A DNA stretch of 54,769 nucleotides from Oscillospiraceae bacterium (GTDB taxonomy: Bacteria; Bacillota; Clostridia; Oscillospirales; Oscillospiraceae). Shown here piece after piece: positions 45,640 through 54,710 of this stretch. A program made the translations under genes and the position numbers. The stretch's first letter is position 1; the number at the start of each line of letters is the position of its first letter. The notes below the pieces were generated by a model. It was not told the origin of the DNA, searched no databases, and saw only the letters and a program-made list of their open reading frames with translations. The stretch covers positions 1 through 54,769 of the forward strand of contig JAISLF010000091.1 of the NCBI GenBank assembly GCA_031260605.1, in the 5' to 3' direction.

Positions 45640-46730
45640 GCGGACGGTTTTTTGGATTTAAGAACTGGTGGTTGGTTCTGCTTAATGCTTGTTCACCAGA
45701 AGCGCTGGTGGCAGCGCAAACGTGCCGCTACGCGTGGCGGCGGTTACTTTTTTCCGCTTCGCCGGAAAAAAGTAACCAAAAAAGGGGCGACTTCTTTAGA
45801 AGAAGCAATCTTTTTTTTATGCCGGGCGTGATTGTGCGGCAATATAGTCCCTGCCCGCCCCGCGACAGGTGCGGAGAAGCATCCGAACGCCAGCGCACCG
45901 CCGCACGCAGGGGCGAAGCCGGGCGCGGGGCTAAAGACTCGGGTAAGGCTGTAAGCCGCCGCGAACTGCGGTGGGGGTGGTAACCGGAAGGACTATGCTG
46001 CTACGATTGCTGACGCACATTGTGCGGCATACAGTACGTGTCCCGACGCGGCGGCTGTTGTGGTTACAGCGGGTGCAAACTTACGGTTCAAGGCAATGCC
46101 CCGCTACCACGACAATCTCCGTAGGGGACGGCGTCTTCGACGTCCCTTGTTTGGTTTGTCGCAGACATTTGCGTCAAACAACTGCGCCCTGCTGTGTGGG
46201 TGCGTTGGGTGCGTCCGTCTTTCTTCGCGCGTTGCGCGTCGTGACACGCGGGGTTGGGACTGCCGCAACAGCGTAGAGAACACTCGAACCTACGCCAAAA
46301 CACTCTGGAGGACACCGCGGAACGCGGTGTCCAGTCCGCACACCTTGTGGCAAACGGGACGCACTTACTTGCCGCACAATACAGCGCAGGCGCGGTGCGG
46401 CAAACCACCGTCAAGTCTGTTTGGCACCCGACGGCAGTTCGCGACAACTTACAGCCTTACACGAGTCACCAACGCCGCGACAGGCTTCGCCCCTGTGTGC
46501 GACGGTGCGTAGGCGTTCGGACGGTACACTGCAATACGTCGCGGGGACAGGCATAAGCCTCCGTCCCACCACGGCAGTTCCCGTATAAAAAAAAGATTGC
46601 TTCTTCTAAAGAAGTCGCCCCTTTTTGGTTACTTTTTCCGGCGAAGCGGAAAAAGTAACCGCCCGCCGCGCAGGCGCTTTGCAGAGCGGCGAGGCGAAGC
46701 TTCGCCGCAATTACAAACATAGCAACCTGC
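45640..46730. repeat. Composite palindromic repeat element B
   Basis: ggttacttttttccgcttcgccggaaaaaagtaacc...gaagaagcaatc at left, inverted copy at 46584-46670; body halves complementary; shares body with element A. Confidence 0.8.
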
Positions 46731-47141: not shown

Positions 47142-47585
47142 TTACTTCTCCAAAATCCCCTTGAGCGTCAGCACCGCCTCGCGGTATCCCTCGAATCCAA
47201 GCCCCGCGACCGTCCTCACACACGCAAGCCCAGCGTAGGACACTTGCCGGAACGCTTCCCGCTCCGATACCTGCGACAGGTGCACCTCAACCGCCGGAAG
47301 TGCCACCGCCTTCAGCGCGTCGAGAATCGCGACGGAGGTGTGCGTGTACGCCGCCGGATTTATGACGATTCCGTCGAACACACCGAGCGCCTCTTGGATT
47401 TTCGTCACAATATCGCCCTCGTGGTTGGACTGGTACAGCTCTGCCTCCACACCCTGCTCCGCGCACGCGCCGCGAATGTATTCGCACAGGTCTGCATAGG
47501 TCTTTTTGCCGTAAATGTCAGGCTCGCGCACGCCGAGCATATTGAGATTCGGCCCGTTGATGACCAGCAGCTTAATTGTTTTCAT
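47142..47585 (-). CDS. aroQ: Type II 3-dehydroquinate dehydratase
   Basis: LLVINGPNLNMLGVREPDIYG, YQSNHEGDIVTKIQEA, NPAAYTHTSVAILDAL. Confidence 0.95.
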   Translation of the reverse strand: MKTIKLLVINGPNLNMLGVREPDIYGKKTYADLCEYIRGACAEQGVEAELYQSNHEGDIVTKIQEALGVFDGIVINPAAYTHTSVAILDALKAVALPAVEVHLSQVSEREAFRQVSYAGLACVRTVAGLGFEGYREAVLTLKGILEK

Positions 47586-48801
47586 TGAACAGCCTCCAAA
47601 TTTCCCGCGCCGAGTCCTCGGCATTTATGTTTTGAACCGCCGCATCGCTTGCGCGCTCGTAATACGCGCCGCGTTCTGCCAGCATTTTGTCCAGAGCGAC
47701 CGCGTCTGACGACAGCGGACGTCCGTTTGTCGCGAGCTGCGAGGTTTTCCGCGTCAGCCAGACGACAAAGCCATTCCGGCGCATTGCGTCAATATTCTCG
47801 CGGCGCAGAACAGCTCCGCCGCCTGTCGAGACGACAAGTCCGTTTTGCAAAAGGCGCTTTTCTGTTACCTCCGCCTCAATATCCCGAAACACCTTTTCGC
47901 CTTGCTTTGCGAAAATTTCGGGGATTGCCGTCCCGGCTGCTTTGACGACCTCGTCGTCCGTATCGAAAAACGCGCGGCCTGAAATGTCCGATATAAGCCG
48001 TCCTACGGTTGACTTGCCGCTCCCCGGCATTCCGACGAGGACTATGTTTTTCAGTGATCGCGTGAGTTCAGCCAAAACCTGCTCGATTTTGCCGTCCGGC
48101 AGCTTGCCGTCCGTGAAAAGCTCTCCCGCATATGCCGCTTGCGCAACGAGCATCGGCAGTCCGCTCGTGTGCGGAACCGCAAGCTCCTCCGCTTGCAGTG
48201 TCAGCGCCGTTTTCAGCGGATTGTACACGACATCCGCAACGCCCGCCAGCTTCGGAAAGTCCGCGAGGTCAATAAGCCGGTCACGGCAGTTGGGGTGCGT
48301 CCCAACAGGTGTTGTGTTGACGATAATCTGCGCGTCACTATGGCGGCTTAGGTTCCCGTAATTGTCCTCTCCGCTGCGCGAGATGTTCACAAGCTCACCC
48401 GCGCCGAGCGAGGAAAGCGCCGCTCTTGCAGTCTTGGACGTTGCGCCGCTGCCGAGTATCAGCGTTTTTTTGCCCGCAGGGTCAATCCCCGCGCGGCGCA
48501 GCATATACAAAAAACCTGCGAAGTCGGTGTTATGCCCGGAAAGCGTGCCGTCTTTTTCGCGCACGACCGTGTTGACGCAACCGATTTTCTCCGCTTCGAG
48601 TGACACGCTGTCGAGAAACCGCAGAACTCTCGTTTTGTACGGATTTGTGACGTTCAGCCCCGCAAAATCTCGGGACGAAAGCAAACTGTCAAAGCCTGCC
48701 TCGTCAAGGCTACGCATTTCGTACTCATACCCGAACAGCGCCTCGTGAATTCGCTTTGAGTGGCTGTAGGAAAGATTGCCGCCTACTAATCCGAAACGCA
48801 T
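47572..48801 (-). CDS. Fused shikimate dehydrogenase - shikimate kinase
   Basis: AroE: GGNLSYSHSKRIHEALF, LNVTNPYKTRVL, NTDFAGFLYML; AroK: VLVGMPGSGKSTVGRLIS, FFDTDDEV, STGGGAVLRREN; start MRFGLVGG at 48801. Confidence 0.93.
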   Translation of the reverse strand: MRFGLVGGNLSYSHSKRIHEALFGYEYEMRSLDEAGFDSLLSSRDFAGLNVTNPYKTRVLRFLDSVSLEAEKIGCVNTVVREKDGTLSGHNTDFAGFLYMLRRAGIDPAGKKTLILGSGATSKTARAALSSLGAGELVNISRSGEDNYGNLSRHSDAQIIVNTTPVGTHPNCRDRLIDLADFPKLAGVADVVYNPLKTALTLQAEELAVPHTSGLPMLVAQAAYAGELFTDGKLPDGKIEQVLAELTRSLKNIVLVGMPGSGKSTVGRLISDISGRAFFDTDDEVVKAAGTAIPEIFAKQGEKVFRDIEAEVTEKRLLQNGLVVSTGGGAVLRRENIDAMRRNGFVVWLTRKTSQLATNGRPLSSDAVALDKMLAERGAYYERASDAAVQNINAEDSAREIWRLFNENN

Positions 48802-49928
48802 TCGGCGTATCCTCCCAGTATTCTGAACCGCGTCGCGTTCTGCGCAATCTGGCTCAGCATTCGTATTGTCGCGTCCTCGCGAATAGGCGCGTCTATTGTC
48901 AGAATAAAGCGGTACTGAAAGTCCGTTCCCGGCTCCGGCATACTCTCGATTTTGGACACATTGAAGCCGAACGCCGCGATTTTGTCGAGACACACGGCAA
49001 GGCTGCCGTTTTCGTGCGGCAGACTCAAAAGAACCGTCACCCTGTCCGGCGACTCCGGTATCTGCATTTCGCGCGACAGGCACAGGAAGCGCGTGTAGTT
49101 GCCCTTTTCGTTCTGAATGTCGCGTTTTAGCACAGTCAGACCGTAAATTTCGCCGCAAAGCTCGGAGCCTATTGCCGCAAGCGCGGTGTCCGCCTTTTCC
49201 GCGACCTCGCGCGCCGCAAAGGCTGTGTTTCCGCGCTCGGATTCCTTTAGCTTTTGCTTTTTTATGAAGTCCGCGCACTGTCCGAGTGCCTGCGGGTGCG
49301 AAATTACCGTCTTAATGTCGCCGAACAGCGTTCCCGGCACCGTCAGCAGACACTGGCTGACCTTGAGCTTAACGCTGCGCACAATATAGGCGTTTCTCGC
49401 CGCAAGCAGGCTGTACACCTCACTGATCGAGCCGAAAATCGAGTTCTCGCACGGCACGAGTCCGTAGCGGCAAAGCCCGTTTTCAACGGCCGAAAACACC
49501 GCCGAGAAGCTGTCAAAAAACAGCAGGTTTGAGGCGTTCAGCGTTTTTTGCGCGCACAGGTGCGAAAACGCGCCCTCCACGCCCTGAACCGCAACGGCAT
49601 AGTCCGCCGTAAAGTCCGGCGGGCTTGCAAAAGCGGGTTCTAACAGCGAACGCAGCTCACTGTCGCTTTTCAGCAGCTCCGCCTGATAGTCCTTGGACAG
49701 CGACATTATATAGGTGTAAATCTGCCGCGCATAAGGCGCAAGCTCCGCCTTGACGGCGCTCTGCACGCGCTCAAGCACCGCATTTTCGCGCGCCGTGTCT
49801 GTTATCGCAAGTCCGGACAGCTCCTTTTCCCGCGCAACCTCCGCCGAAACCTCCATACGCCGCTCAAAAAGCGCCGCAAGCTCCTTGTCGATTCTGTTGA
49901 TTTCCTCGCGCTGTGCGTCCAAACTCAT
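48786..49928 (-). CDS. pheA: Bifunctional chorismate mutase / prephenate dehydratase
   Basis: IDKELAALFERRMEVSAEVAREK; VQGVEGAFSHLCA, GLVPCENSIFGS, NYTRFLCLS. Confidence 0.93.
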   Translation of the reverse strand: MSLDAQREEINRIDKELAALFERRMEVSAEVAREKELSGLAITDTARENAVLERVQSAVKAELAPYARQIYTYIMSLSKDYQAELLKSDSELRSLLEPAFASPPDFTADYAVAVQGVEGAFSHLCAQKTLNASNLLFFDSFSAVFSAVENGLCRYGLVPCENSIFGSISEVYSLLAARNAYIVRSVKLKVSQCLLTVPGTLFGDIKTVISHPQALGQCADFIKKQKLKESERGNTAFAAREVAEKADTALAAIGSELCGEIYGLTVLKRDIQNEKGNYTRFLCLSREMQIPESPDRVTVLLSLPHENGSLAVCLDKIAAFGFNVSKIESMPEPGTDFQYRFILTIDAPIREDATIRMLSQIAQNATRFRILGGYAECVSD

Positions 49929-51010
49929 AAAAACCTCCCTGCCGCCATAAGGTCGGCAATCGCCACGGCCGCCGCCGCCGTTATCGCGGGGACAGCACGC
50001 GGCAGAATCGACGGGTCGTGACGGCCGCCGACTGTTATTTGCGTGTTGGTGTTTGTTTTCATATTTACCGTTTCCTGCGGCACGGCAACCGACGGCGTCG
50101 GCTTTACCGCCGCGCGGAATATCACGGGCATTCCTGTTGTAATGCCGCCGAGAATGCCGCCGGCGTTGTTTGTTTTCGCGCCGAGCTTGCCGTTTTCGTC
50201 AAAGAACAGGCTGTCGTTATTTTCACTGCCGCGCATACCGGCGGCGGCGAAACCCGCGCCGAACTCAAGCCCCTTGACTGCCGGCACGGAAAACACGGCG
50301 TGGGCTATAACTGACTCCACGCTGTCATACATCGGCTCTCCGACTCCCGCAGGCAGACCTGTAACAGCGCACTCAATAACGCCACCGAGAGAATCGCCGT
50401 CAGCCTTTGCCGCAAGGATTTTTTCTGTCATTTTCGCCGCAGCTTCGGGCAAAATCACGGGAAGTGCGTTTGTCAGAATTGCGTCCGCGTCTGAGGGCGC
50501 GAGCGGATCAAACGGCTTGTCTGTGACTCCGCCGAGTGACAGTATGTGCGCCGCAAACTTGACCCCGCGCGCTTGCAGCAGCTGCAGGCAAAGCCCGCCC
50601 GCAAAGCACAGGGGCGCAGTCAGCCGCCCGGAAAAATGGCCGCCGCCGCGAATGTCGTGATACTCGCCGTATTTCAGTATCGCTGCAAGGTCCGAATGAC
50701 CGGGACGCGGCGTTTCGAGATAGCCCGAATAGTCCTGCGAGCGCGTGTTTGTGTTGCGGATAACGGCGGCGATTGCCCCGCCTGTCGCGTGTCCGTCTTG
50801 TATGCCGGAAAGCAGCTCAAATTCGTCTGCTTCTGACCGCGCGGTCGAGGTTGCGGAGCCGCCCGGCGCGCGCCTTGCCATAAAGCGCCGCACCTCGTCA
50901 AGGTCAATCGCGGTACCTGCGGGTATTCCGTCGAGCACGCAACCGATTCCTGCCGTGTGCGAACCGCCGAACACCGTCATTCTGATATTTGTCCCAAAGC
51001 TAAACGACAT
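49925..51010 (-). CDS. aroC: Chorismate synthase
   Basis: MTVFGGSHTAGIGCVLDGIPAG, RPGHSDLAAILKYGEYHDIRGGGHFSGRLTAP, GGRHDPSILPRAVP. Confidence 0.96.
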   Translation of the reverse strand: MSFSFGTNIRMTVFGGSHTAGIGCVLDGIPAGTAIDLDEVRRFMARRAPGGSATSTARSEADEFELLSGIQDGHATGGAIAAVIRNTNTRSQDYSGYLETPRPGHSDLAAILKYGEYHDIRGGGHFSGRLTAPLCFAGGLCLQLLQARGVKFAAHILSLGGVTDKPFDPLAPSDADAILTNALPVILPEAAAKMTEKILAAKADGDSLGGVIECAVTGLPAGVGEPMYDSVESVIAHAVFSVPAVKGLEFGAGFAAAGMRGSENNDSLFFDENGKLGAKTNNAGGILGGITTGMPVIFRAAVKPTPSVAVPQETVNMKTNTNTQITVGGRHDPSILPRAVPAITAAAAVAIADLMAAGRFL

Positions 51011-52277
51011 CTGCACATCCTCCGAGCCTGTTGTAGTCCTCAAAAAACTGAGGATACGATTTTTTGACGCTCTCCGCGTCTGTAATCATACTTGTTCCGC
51101 TCGCGCACGCGGCGGCGACCGCAAACGCCATAACAATGCGGTGGTCGTCGTAGCCAAACATCGCCGCGCCCGTCAGCGCTCCGCCGTGTATCTCGAGGCT
51201 GTCGGCAGTCTCCGTAACGCGCACGCCCATTATGGCGAGGTTTGCGGCACAGGCCGCAAGCCTGTCGCTCTCCTTTATTCGCAGACGCGCGGCGTTCTCG
51301 ATTCGCGAAACGCCGGGAATATTCGCCATAAGCACCGCAAGCGCGGGTGCAAGATCAGGAAAGCCTGATACGTCAACATTTATCGGCCGCAACTGCCCTT
51401 CTTTTACGGTAAAGCTCCCGCCCGATTCGGTAACGACCGCCCCAATATCCCGCACAATCCGGAGTATCGCCCTGTCAGGCTGGCTCGACGTTTTCGACAG
51501 TCCCGATACCGTGATTCCGTCCTCCGACAGCGCACCGAGTGTAATCCAAAACGCGGCCGACGACCAGTCCCCCTCCGCGCACAAGGCGGAGGTGTCAGGC
51601 GGTACGGTATACCTCTGCCCCGCAGGGATTTCCCAGCCGTCCGGCAGAGCGCGAACCGCAATGCCGAATTTTTGCAGCGCGAATACAGTCATATCAATAT
51701 ATTCCGTACTCTCCGGCGGGCTTGTCAGCGTGATTTTGCACGCCTGCCCGGTGAGCGGCGCGGCAAACAGCAGTCCCGAAACGTACTGCGAGCTGATGTT
51801 TCCCGGCAGGGCAAATTCCCCGCCCGCGAGCCGCCCGGACATGTCAAGCGGCAGTGTGTCCCCTACCCTAACGCCGCTCTGCCGCAGCAGCGCCGTCATT
51901 GTGTCAATCGGGCGTTGCGGCAGTCTGCCCTGCCCGATTATCGTCGCCGAAACACCAAGGGCGGCGGCGACAGGCAGCAAAAACCGCAGTGTCGAACCGC
52001 TTTCACGGCAGTTCAGCACAGCCGTTTGCGGCGGTTCGCTTGGCGGTGTTACTGCAATGCCGCTGTCATTTGTGGCAAACTGTGCGCCGAGAGCCGTCAG
52101 GCAATCCATTGTCGCGTAAATATCCTGTGACAGCTCGCTTGTCCCGCCCGGCACAGCAATTTCACACGGACGGTCGGCCAGCGCCGCGCAAATCAGCAGT
52201 CTGTGCAGGTCGGACTTTGAAACAGGCGGCGTGACGCTGCCGGAAAGCGCGCCGTCAGGCCTTATAATCACGTTCAT
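51000..52277 (-). CDS. aroA: 3-phosphoshikimate 1-carboxyvinyltransferase
   Basis: VSKSDLHRLLICAALA, CRESGSTLRFLLPVAAALG, IKESDRLAACAANLAIMG, YDDHRIVMAFAVAA. Confidence 0.95.
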   Translation of the reverse strand: MNVIIRPDGALSGSVTPPVSKSDLHRLLICAALADRPCEIAVPGGTSELSQDIYATMDCLTALGAQFATNDSGIAVTPPSEPPQTAVLNCRESGSTLRFLLPVAAALGVSATIIGQGRLPQRPIDTMTALLRQSGVRVGDTLPLDMSGRLAGGEFALPGNISSQYVSGLLFAAPLTGQACKITLTSPPESTEYIDMTVFALQKFGIAVRALPDGWEIPAGQRYTVPPDTSALCAEGDWSSAAFWITLGALSEDGITVSGLSKTSSQPDRAILRIVRDIGAVVTESGGSFTVKEGQLRPINVDVSGFPDLAPALAVLMANIPGVSRIENAARLRIKESDRLAACAANLAIMGVRVTETADSLEIHGGALTGAAMFGYDDHRIVMAFAVAAACASGTSMITDAESVKKSYPQFFEDYNRLGGCADVV

Positions 52278-53326
52278 CGGCGCAAAACCTCAAGTCCGTC
52301 AGCGATAAACCCCTCAATTTCGCCCACATCAAGCGGTACGACCTCCGCGCTGCCGATTCGCGTCGGCAAAATCAGGTCTATTTTCCCGCCGGCAAGCTTT
52401 TTGTCAGACAAAACAGCCTGTGCCAGCTCCGCCGCGCCGTACTCCGTGCCGCGCGGCAGTCCGTGGCGGCGCAGTGCCGCAAGCAGCGGGTCAAGACAGC
52501 CTGACGCAAGTCCGCGCTTTTGCGCGGAGGCAACGGCAACCGCCATTCCGGCGGCAACGGCAAAGCCGTGCGGCACAGCGTAGTCCGACAGCTTTTCGAC
52601 TGCGTGACCGACCGTGTGGCCGAAGTTAAGAAGCTTCCGCACACCCGATTCCCGCTCGTCCTGCGAGACAATCTCCGCTTTTATCTCAATGCAGCGCAGA
52701 ATATCCGCAAGCTCCGGTGTGTCGGAGTCCGCCAGTCTTGCAAAAAGCTCCGCGTCCCGAATAACGCCGGTTTTCAGCATTTCGGCGGTTCCGTTTTTGA
52801 TTTGCAGCTCAGGCAGTGTCGTCAGAGTATCCGCGTCGAGAAAAACAGCCGTTGGCTGCCAGAACGCACCCGTGAGATTTTTGCCGTGCGCAAGGTTCAC
52901 GCCCGTTTTGCCGCCGACAGAGGAATCGACCATTGCAAGCAGCGTCGTCGGAATCTGGTAAAACTCAATTCCGCGCATAAAAGCGGATGCGGCAAAGCCC
53001 GCAAGGTCGCCCACGACTCCGCCGCCGAGTGCGAATATCTTGTCTGTGCGCGAAAATCTCAGCATAGCCAAAACCTCGAGTATTTCGCCGAACACCGTCA
53101 GATTTTTCGCCTGCTCGCCGCTTTTGAACACGAATCTATGCACCGAAAATCCCGCTTTCTTCAGCGACTGCTCAACGGTGTCGCAGTACAGCGGGGCGAC
53201 GTTACTGTCGGTCACAATAAGCGCCTTTTCGCCGGGCGCCGCCGTGACAGGCAGGTGCGAAAGCAGTCCGCGTTCTGCAAAAACGGAGTAGCTCCGCTGA
53301 TTTGTTTGTACCTGTATCTCTGTCAT
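52274..53326 (-). CDS. aroB: 3-dehydroquinate synthase
   Basis: ALGGGVVGDLAGFAASAFMRGIEFYQIPTTLLAMVDSSVGGKTGVN. Confidence 0.96.
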   Translation of the reverse strand: MTEIQVQTNQRSYSVFAERGLLSHLPVTAAPGEKALIVTDSNVAPLYCDTVEQSLKKAGFSVHRFVFKSGEQAKNLTVFGEILEVLAMLRFSRTDKIFALGGGVVGDLAGFAASAFMRGIEFYQIPTTLLAMVDSSVGGKTGVNLAHGKNLTGAFWQPTAVFLDADTLTTLPELQIKNGTAEMLKTGVIRDAELFARLADSDTPELADILRCIEIKAEIVSQDERESGVRKLLNFGHTVGHAVEKLSDYAVPHGFAVAAGMAVAVASAQKRGLASGCLDPLLAALRRHGLPRGTEYGAAELAQAVLSDKKLAGGKIDLILPTRIGSAEVVPLDVGEIEGFIADGLEVLRR

Positions 53327-54327
53327 TACAGTGCCGCTTCCAGCTTGCGAACCTGACCCGCGATTTCCTCAAACTGAGGCGGCGTTATGGACTGCGGTCC
53401 GTCGCAAAGCGCGGCAGAGGGGTTGTTGTGCACCTCAATAATCAGCCCGTGAGCGCCCGCCGCTGTCGCGGCAAGAGTCATTGTGCGCACAAACCGCGCC
53501 GCACCCGTTGCATGGCTCGGGTCAACAATGATCGGCAGGTGCGACAGCTCCTTTACCGCCGGAATCGCCGAAAGGTCAAGCGTGTTGCGCGTCACCGTCT
53601 CAAAGGTGCGGATTCCGCGCTCGCATAGTATTACATTGCTGTTTCCGCCGGACATAATGTATTCCGCGCTCATCAGCAGCTCGCGGATCGTGTTTGCAAG
53701 TCCGCGCTTTAGCAGCACCGGCTTGTTCCCGCGACCGAGAACCTTCAGCAGCTCGAAATTCTGCATATTGCGCGCGCCGACCTGAATCAGGTCAACGTCC
53801 GCGAACAGGTCAAGCTGCGAGATGTCCATAATCTCCGTGACAATCGGCAGGCCGGTGAGCCTCTTTGCCTTTAGCAGCAGCTCAAGTCCTTCGGCGCGCA
53901 GACCCTGAAAGTCATAAGGCGAGGTTCGCGGCTTAAATGCCCCGCCGCGCAGCATTTGCGCACCCGCCGCCTTGACGGACTCCGCAATCCCGCAAATCTG
54001 CTCCTCGGATTCAACAGAGCAGGGTCCCGCAATCAGCACGGTTTTATTGTCGCCGCCGAATTTCGCACCGCCAACTTCAACGACTGTATCCTCAGGATGG
54101 AACTTGCGGTTTGCTTTCTTAAACGGCTCCGATACGCGCTGCACGTTGTCAACAAAATCGAGCGCGCGCAGCATATCCTCATCGACATTCGTTGTGTCGC
54201 CGATAAGTCCGAGAACGGTGCACGCCGTACCCTTGTTCATCTGAATGTCGATATTCAGCGTTTTGAGCCAGTCCTTGAGCGTGCTGAGCCGCGCTTCAGG
54301 GTAGTTTTGTTTTAGGATTACTATCAT
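53326..54327 (-). CDS. aroF: 3-deoxy-7-phosphoheptulonate synthase
   Basis: VLIAGPCSVESEEQI, LRGGAFKPRTSPYDFQGL, QVGARNMQNFELLK, IVDPSHATG. Confidence 0.95.
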   Translation of the reverse strand: MIVILKQNYPEARLSTLKDWLKTLNIDIQMNKGTACTVLGLIGDTTNVDEDMLRALDFVDNVQRVSEPFKKANRKFHPEDTVVEVGGAKFGGDNKTVLIAGPCSVESEEQICGIAESVKAAGAQMLRGGAFKPRTSPYDFQGLRAEGLELLLKAKRLTGLPIVTEIMDISQLDLFADVDLIQVGARNMQNFELLKVLGRGNKPVLLKRGLANTIRELLMSAEYIMSGGNSNVILCERGIRTFETVTRNTLDLSAIPAVKELSHLPIIVDPSHATGAARFVRTMTLAATAAGAHGLIIEVHNNPSAALCDGPQSITPPQFEEIAGQVRKLEAAL

Positions 54328-54376
54328 TTTGGTGGTTCCTTAAAATAAATTTGCGGTGTTTTGTTTATAAAATAAT

Positions 54377-54402
54377 AAAACCCCGCAGCTTTCACTGCGG
54401 GG
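54377..54402 (-). terminator. Attenuator terminator of the aro/pheA operon
   Basis: minus strand ccccgcag-tgaaag-ctgcgggg followed by ttttatta. Confidence 0.88.
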
Positions 54403-54431
54403 CGACTTAACAATAGTGCCTTTATCCCAGT

Positions 54432-54533
54432 TTAATAAACCTTCGCAGTGAAACGCCTAAAAGCCTTACCAAAAAAGAAATAGGTAAAGCTAAAAATAAA
54501 GCTAAAAAAGAATGCAAAGGATGAAAGTATCAT
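54432..54533 (-). CDS. Phe-rich leader peptide (33 aa) of the aro/pheA operon
   Basis: Manual translation: MILSSFAFFFSFIFSFTYFFFGKAFRRFTAKVY stop; 12 Phe, 2 Tyr; next to attenuator. Confidence 0.85.
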   Translation of the reverse strand: MILSSFAFFFSFIFSFTYFFFGKAFRRFTAKVY

Positions 54534-54540
54534 TGGAATT

Positions 54541-54569
54541 ATGGTAACACATTGCGCGGGGCTTGTCAA
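54541..54569 (-). promoter_or_regulatory. Promoter TTGACA-N17-TACCAT for the aro/pheA operon
   Basis: minus strand -35 at 54564-54569, -10 at 54541-54546. Confidence 0.75.
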
Positions 54570-54589: not shown

Positions 54590-54710
54590 TTTAGGAGCGG
54601 TTATTTGGATTTAAGGATTTTTGGTTTGGTCTGCTTATTGCTTGTTCACCAGGGGCGCTGGTGTGTGCGCAAACGTGCCACTGCGCGCGGCGGCGGGTTA
54701 AAATTACCGC
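54590..54710. repeat. Dispersed intergenic repeat copy at window end
   Basis: ggtttggtctgcttattgcttgttcaccaggggcgctggtgtgtgcgcaaacgtgccactgcgcgcggcggcgg matches about 45660-45735 and reverse complement of about 85-200. Confidence 0.75.

Follow-up and report, generated by a model that had tools for sequence, protein, structure and literature searches.

How is a complete shikimate operon controlled when a short ORF crowded with Phe codons and an intrinsic terminator stand before its first gene? This question is raised by the end of a contig from an Oscillospiraceae bacterium of the class Clostridia. Textbook accounts of amino-acid control in Firmicutes center on T-boxes, TRAP and repressors. 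The window is the whole stretch of DNA that was analyzed, 54,769 nucleotides in length. A seven-gene shikimate/pheA operon had been claimed in the first-pass annotation, and Pfam confirmed all seven genes, in the order aroF-aroB-aroA-aroC-pheA-aroE/K-aroQ. Neighboring ORFs overlap or abut.

53326 to 54327, minus strand: aroF, DAHP synthase (Pfam DAHP_synth_1 with a ferredoxin-like domain), with its own Shine-Dalgarno sequence AAGGAA at 54336-54341
52274 to 53326, minus strand: aroB, 3-dehydroquinate synthase (Pfam)
51000 to 52277, minus strand: aroA, EPSP synthase (Pfam)
49925 to 51010, minus strand: aroC, chorismate synthase (Pfam), with the start assumed at MSFSFG
48786 to 49928, minus strand: pheA, chorismate mutase-prephenate dehydratase (Pfam)
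47572 to 48801, minus strand: aroE-aroK fusion, shikimate dehydrogenase and shikimate kinase (Pfam)
47142 to 47585, minus strand: aroQ, type II dehydroquinase (Pfam)

The Phe-rich leader ORF

The 33-codon ORF with 12 Phe codons that had been described on the minus strand at 54432-54533 was found as claimed, and its coordinates were all verified. The ORF is located between a strong promoter and the intrinsic terminator, 104 nt 5' of aroF. Its translation, MILSSFAFFFSFIFSFTYFFFGKAFRRFTAKVY, contains 12 Phe and 2 Tyr, with one Tyr inside the control run.

54432 to 54533, minus strand: leader peptide ORF, from ATG at 54533 to TAA at 54432 (stop codon 54432-54434), 33 codons, 12 of them Phe
54471 to 54518, minus strand: Phe control-codon run, codons 6-21 as read from the sequence, with more Phe at codons 25 and 28

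When the 320 nt upstream of aroF were shuffled 2000 times with dinucleotides preserved, no shuffle reached the Phe/Tyr density of this leader. When both strands of the 54.8 kb window were scanned for Phe/Tyr-rich ORFs, the leader was the only match, even at a lower threshold that 2 of 1124 random genomic 320-mers reached. The Phe-rich leader ORF before aroF is far above chance.

The promoter and the predicted start of translation

A sigma-70-type promoter, absent from the first-pass annotation, was found directly upstream of the leader ORF.

54541 to 54569, minus strand: sigma-70-type promoter, TTGACA-17-TGtTACCAT, with an extended -10 (TGt) and 10 of 12 consensus matches
54533 to 54534, minus strand: predicted transcription start, on the leader ATG or one base before it, placed by the 7 nt spacing after the -10 box and the missing Shine-Dalgarno sequence

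A transcription start downstream of 54533 had been named earlier as a refutation of the attenuator; the predicted start falls at the leader ATG. The ATG lies 7 nt downstream of the -10 box without a Shine-Dalgarno sequence. Judged by this spacing and by the missing ribosome-binding site, the leader ORF is probably leaderless, and its translation would therefore rely on leaderless initiation. In the genome of the window, ATGs downstream of TTGACA-16/18-TANNNT promoters are enriched at 6-8 nt (19 in total versus about 3 per position elsewhere). This excess suggests that leaderless starts may be a real gene class in this genome. A leaderless-like arrangement was found in one other locus, L017, and most of the homologous leader ORFs have a Shine-Dalgarno sequence and a near-consensus promoter about 30 nt 5' of the leader ATG. 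Leader-peptide attenuation without a Shine-Dalgarno sequence has already been described for Streptomyces (PMC8079986). If the leaderless reading is true, classical attenuation in Clostridia can also do without one.

A repeat of about 99 bp is located just upstream of the leader promoter, at 54598-54696 on the minus strand, with another copy at 45645-45743. About 40 such sites were found in the genome of the window; they are 77-88% identical, and they often lie less than 100 nt from a contig end.

Competing helices in the leader RNA

A leader segment complementary to the terminator 5' arm and loop had been proposed earlier, and the pairing is exact. The segment TTTCACTGCG (54453-54444, minus strand) is fully complementary to CGCAGTGAAA (54399-54390), which is the terminator loop and most of its 5' arm. 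The terminator itself is a 10-pair hairpin at 54403-54380 with -19.7 kcal/mol, followed by TTTTATTATTTTA. Folding of the leader RNA, suggested earlier as a check, returned the terminator, the 2:3 antiterminator and an additional 1:2 helix (54520-54513 with 54447-54440), which is the default fold and had not been noticed before. The anatomy is that of a classical 1:2/2:3/3:4 attenuator with mutually exclusive pairings.

54513 to 54520, minus strand: segment 1 (CCTTTGCA), which pairs with 54440-54447 (TGCGAAGG) as the 1:2 protector hairpin in the folds
54440 to 54453, minus strand: segment 2 (TTTCACTGCGAAGG), codons 27-32 of the leader ORF
54390 to 54403, minus strand: segment 3, terminator 5' arm and loop, antiterminator with segment 2 over 10 contiguous pairs
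54380 to 54388, minus strand: segment 4, terminator 3' arm
54368 to 54380, minus strand: U-rich tail of the intrinsic terminator

Ribosome stalling was modeled on a transcript ending before segment 4, from which the RNA upstream of codon 25 was removed, as with a ribosome stalled at F21. This RNA folded into the 10-pair 2:3 helix with -18.9 kcal/mol. The computed antiterminator probability was 0.89 in the stalled state and 0.29 with the ribosome at the stop codon. In these computations the antiterminator excludes the terminator, is accessible on a stall and is masked when the ribosome is at the stop. Full-equilibrium folding of the whole leader was dropped as a discriminator, as the terminator won at every ribosome position; folds of the RNA without segment 4 were used in its place. 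This dominance indicates that the switch relies on the order in which its helices form during transcription, just as classical attenuators do.

Taken on its own, the 2:3 pairing of the window was not extreme in energy when compared with shuffled segment 2 (p 0.07); it is the relatives as a set that carry the case. As a null for a single locus, that of the window, the shuffling of segment 2 was too weak; self pairing was therefore compared with non-self pairing, with control pairs.

The proposed mechanism

A short ORF rich in codons for the pathway product follows the promoter, and an intrinsic terminator precedes the first gene. Very probably, the shikimate/pheA operon is controlled here by a transcription attenuator that senses Phe through a translating ribosome; stalling, read-through and the response to Phe are predicted from the sequence. 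RNA polymerase would start at 54533/54534, and a ribosome would at once be placed on the probably leaderless Phe-rich ORF. With charged Phe-tRNA, the ribosome would reach the stop codon and cover segment 2, and the 3:4 terminator would form before aroF. With scarce Phe-tRNA, the ribosome would stall in the Phe run, so that the 1:2 hairpin would be broken and segment 2 left free. The free segment 2 would pair with the emerging segment 3, no terminator would form, and all seven genes would be transcribed. The pheL-like logic of the first reading is supported by this anatomy, by the leaders of relatives and by the co-varying pairings described below.

Leader ORFs in related genomes

About 230 upstream regions of DAHP synthase genes were compared, taken from named genomes and from genomes of the family, order and class of the window. 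A leader ORF was defined by at least 7 Phe/Tyr within 14 codons. The loci were picked by AroF similarity to the window, and the leader fractions hold for that AroF type. A Phe/Tyr-rich leader ORF was found before about two-thirds of these regions (0.2% in random DNA), with a terminator nearly always next. In the first set, 91 of 130 distinct aroF loci carried the ORF; the corresponding figures were 2 of 130 for reverse complements, 1.35% for shuffles and 2 of 1124 for the random 320-mers. Among further loci the count was 31 of 59, and several of the negatives had aroF inside an operon, after aroC. The other orders of the class gave 30 of 40 loci, from 21 families outside the order of the window. 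A terminator of -10 kcal/mol or better followed the ORF in 120 of 122 leader loci. The Phe-rich ORF is thus conserved in relatives, and the arrangement, which had first been considered unusual in Clostridia, looks like the common control of this type of aroF there.

Closest to the window is a genus relative (G006) with an aroF 94% identical to that of the window; its contig ends inside the gene, and the upstream region lies beyond the contig. Other members of the genus have different aroF arrangements, and no leader was found in them. The leader is present in the culturable hosts Angelakisella massiliensis (L080), Sporobacter termitidis (L065) and Yanshouia hominis (L034).

Further leaders were observed alongside this set. 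A Phe/Tyr leader with aroF is also found in bins labeled Lentisphaerae, Treponema, Thermoguttaceae and Victivallales (L033, L035, L041, L043, L054, L063, L081); either a self-regulated cassette was transferred or the metagenomes were misbinned. A second leader type upstream of aroF (L192, L206, L208) has a conserved YPR[FY]..AW.F.AC-like motif that includes Trp. It is below the Phe/Tyr threshold and possibly senses all three aromatics. A third type, with a C-terminal GFYFSxGxFCC-like motif, was seen in other families of the class (L020, L032, L079, L201, L205, L254, L263, L266).

Co-variation of the pairings

Complementarity between the leader ORF and the terminator co-varies in relatives with the terminator of each locus. 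Segment 2 paired with its own terminator arm at -14.6 kcal/mol and with those of other loci at -11.2 kcal/mol (z -12.9, 89 loci). The z value was -12.3 once similar loci were thinned and -18.3 in 147 loci, and 0 of 20000 permutations were as good. The 1:2 pairing was likewise self-specific across the 147 loci, with z from -14 to -17 and a value of -14.1 in the comparison with control pairs. The control pairs promoter:3 and 1:3 showed no self-specific pairing (z -1.1 and -1.3), and a weaker signal (z -3.2) came from the promoter against the region holding segment 2. The antiterminator probability, computed for 119 loci, had a mean of 0.74 with the ribosome in the Phe/Tyr run versus 0.42 at the stop; with shuffled spacers, the corresponding values were 0.55 and 0.41.

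Control codons and tyrA

In the control windows of 152 leaders, Phe accounts for 35%, Tyr for 27% and Trp for 0.5% of the residues. The number of Tyr codons was compared with the position of tyrA in 87 loci with readable downstream DNA. Among leaders with one Tyr, tyrA is the gene directly after aroF in 0 of 5; for two or fewer Tyr the count is 2 of 12, and for at least three it is 65 of 75 (Fisher p 2e-6; 0.001 once similar loci were collapsed). The prephenate dehydrogenase profile PF02153, with coordinates compared, placed tyrA adjoining aroF in 23 of 23 Tyr-rich genomes. The same profile found no tyrA in the Tyr-poor genomes G034, G027 and that of the window, and in three Tyr-poor genomes of one genus tyrA is on another contig than aroF. 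The genome of the window is 74% complete and the absence of tyrA from it is provisional; this is weak from one genome alone, and the adjacency test over 87 loci was therefore used instead.

The Phe-rich leader of the window, as read from its codons, fits an operon with pheA and without tyrA. The control codons match the end product, with a Phe leader before pheA and Tyr codons tracking tyrA. No other indirect evidence speaks as strongly as this tracking for a leader that senses the supply of amino acids.

T-boxes and other explanations

Control of the terminator by another leader RNA, such as a T-box, a riboswitch or a protein-bound attenuator of the TRAP kind, would leave the Phe-rich ORF incidental. 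Firmicutes usually control amino-acid genes by T-boxes, and the genome of the window has two of them, ahead of the aspS and trp operons. One lies ahead of aspS-gatA (L148, contig C33). The other lies ahead of a trp operon that carries a second DAHP synthase gene (L147, contig C16), and its specifier looks compatible with UGG, an unproven reading. However, Rfam detected neither a T-box nor any other leader RNA at the leader of the window, where the T-box covariance model that matches elsewhere in the genome did not match. The first-pass framing of the T-box as the alternative here did not hold, since about 60 leader-negative aroF loci gave no T-box hit and it is the trp operon of the same genome that uses one. 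With a length of only about 150 nt, the leader RNA is mostly occupied by the ORF, and its Phe/Tyr codon content is conserved and tracks tyrA. Such control is very unlikely.

The leader peptide may also act by its sequence, through nascent-chain arrest by free Phe or another ligand, and not through tRNA charging. C-terminal motifs such as GFYFSxGxFCC or GKA[FY] are common to some relatives, which speaks for this explanation. However, the aromatic residues are conserved in composition and not in order, and the motifs coincide with segment 2, so that RNA pairing explains them. We consider nascent-chain arrest as improbable as another leader RNA.

Least probable of all is a Phe run that only reflects a pyrimidine-rich sequence, such as a Rho or protein site, with complementarity by chance: the leader RNA is U-rich and the window-only p value is the 0.07 given above, but neither dinucleotide shuffling nor reverse complementing yields ORFs of this kind, which have a start codon, usually a Shine-Dalgarno sequence, a position about 30 nt past a near-perfect promoter, Phe mixed with Tyr codons, and pairings specific to each locus.

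Comparison with known systems

The Phe-sensing attenuator proposed here shares with the enterobacterial pheL-pheA system, and with the pheST leader, a Phe-rich leader peptide, the 1:2/2:3/3:4 helices, an intrinsic terminator and the control of pheA. In contrast to pheL, the leader of the window is longer (33 codons), is probably leaderless, comes from Clostridia without sequence relation, and precedes a whole shikimate operon beginning with DAHP synthase. No Pfam, NCBIfam or Rfam leader-peptide family matched it. Membership in the enterobacterial Rfam Phe_leader/pheL family was rejected on this ground; the leader would work alike and is not a member by descent.

In Corynebacterium glutamicum, as far as the account in PMC11802643 (citing Neshat et al. 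2014) goes, the AroR leader with Phe-Tyr-Phe precedes the aroF operon, and Phe limitation leads to ribosome stalling and more transcription. AroR is from Actinobacteria, has few control codons and, in the same account, is experimentally supported, whereas the leader of the window is known computationally. The uORFC-13-1 motif of Acholeplasma, with 24 representatives from Acholeplasma and unassigned environmental sequences, has a uORF with one or more Phe codons before aroF (PMC8632094). It shares with the window the order of promoter, Phe-codon uORF, terminator and aroF. At least one Phe codon is claimed for it, compared with 12 Phe in the window and, for the Clostridia set, about 9 Phe/Tyr. 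Attenuators with His leaders occur in bacilli and in a small number of other Firmicutes, a few Clostridia among them (PMC2965389, PMC9413887). They use the same classical leader-peptide attenuation, but for histidine; PMC9413887 describes His leaders in 17 genomes, and aromatic leaders are not reported there. A Leu-rich leader is described in S. aureus (PMC5794164).

The mechanism is thus already known from pheL and from C. glutamicum aroR, and the Clostridia-wide family appears unreported; a partial literature search turned up no earlier description of attenuators with aromatic leaders in this class. It is likely that these leaders form an unrecorded, class-wide family before DAHP synthase, with a Phe:Tyr ratio that shifts as tyrA enters or leaves the operon, leaderless and almost Phe-only in the lineage of the window. 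If this is true, leader-peptide attenuation, and not the T-box, would be what usually controls entry into the shikimate pathway in Clostridia, and regulon annotation in the class would change with it. The aroF leaders form a ready-made set in which sensor codons vary with the genes of the operon, and some hosts that carry the leader can be cultured for testing. Compared with the known attenuators, what looks new is the scope: a system spread across the class, in which the leader codons change along with the operon.
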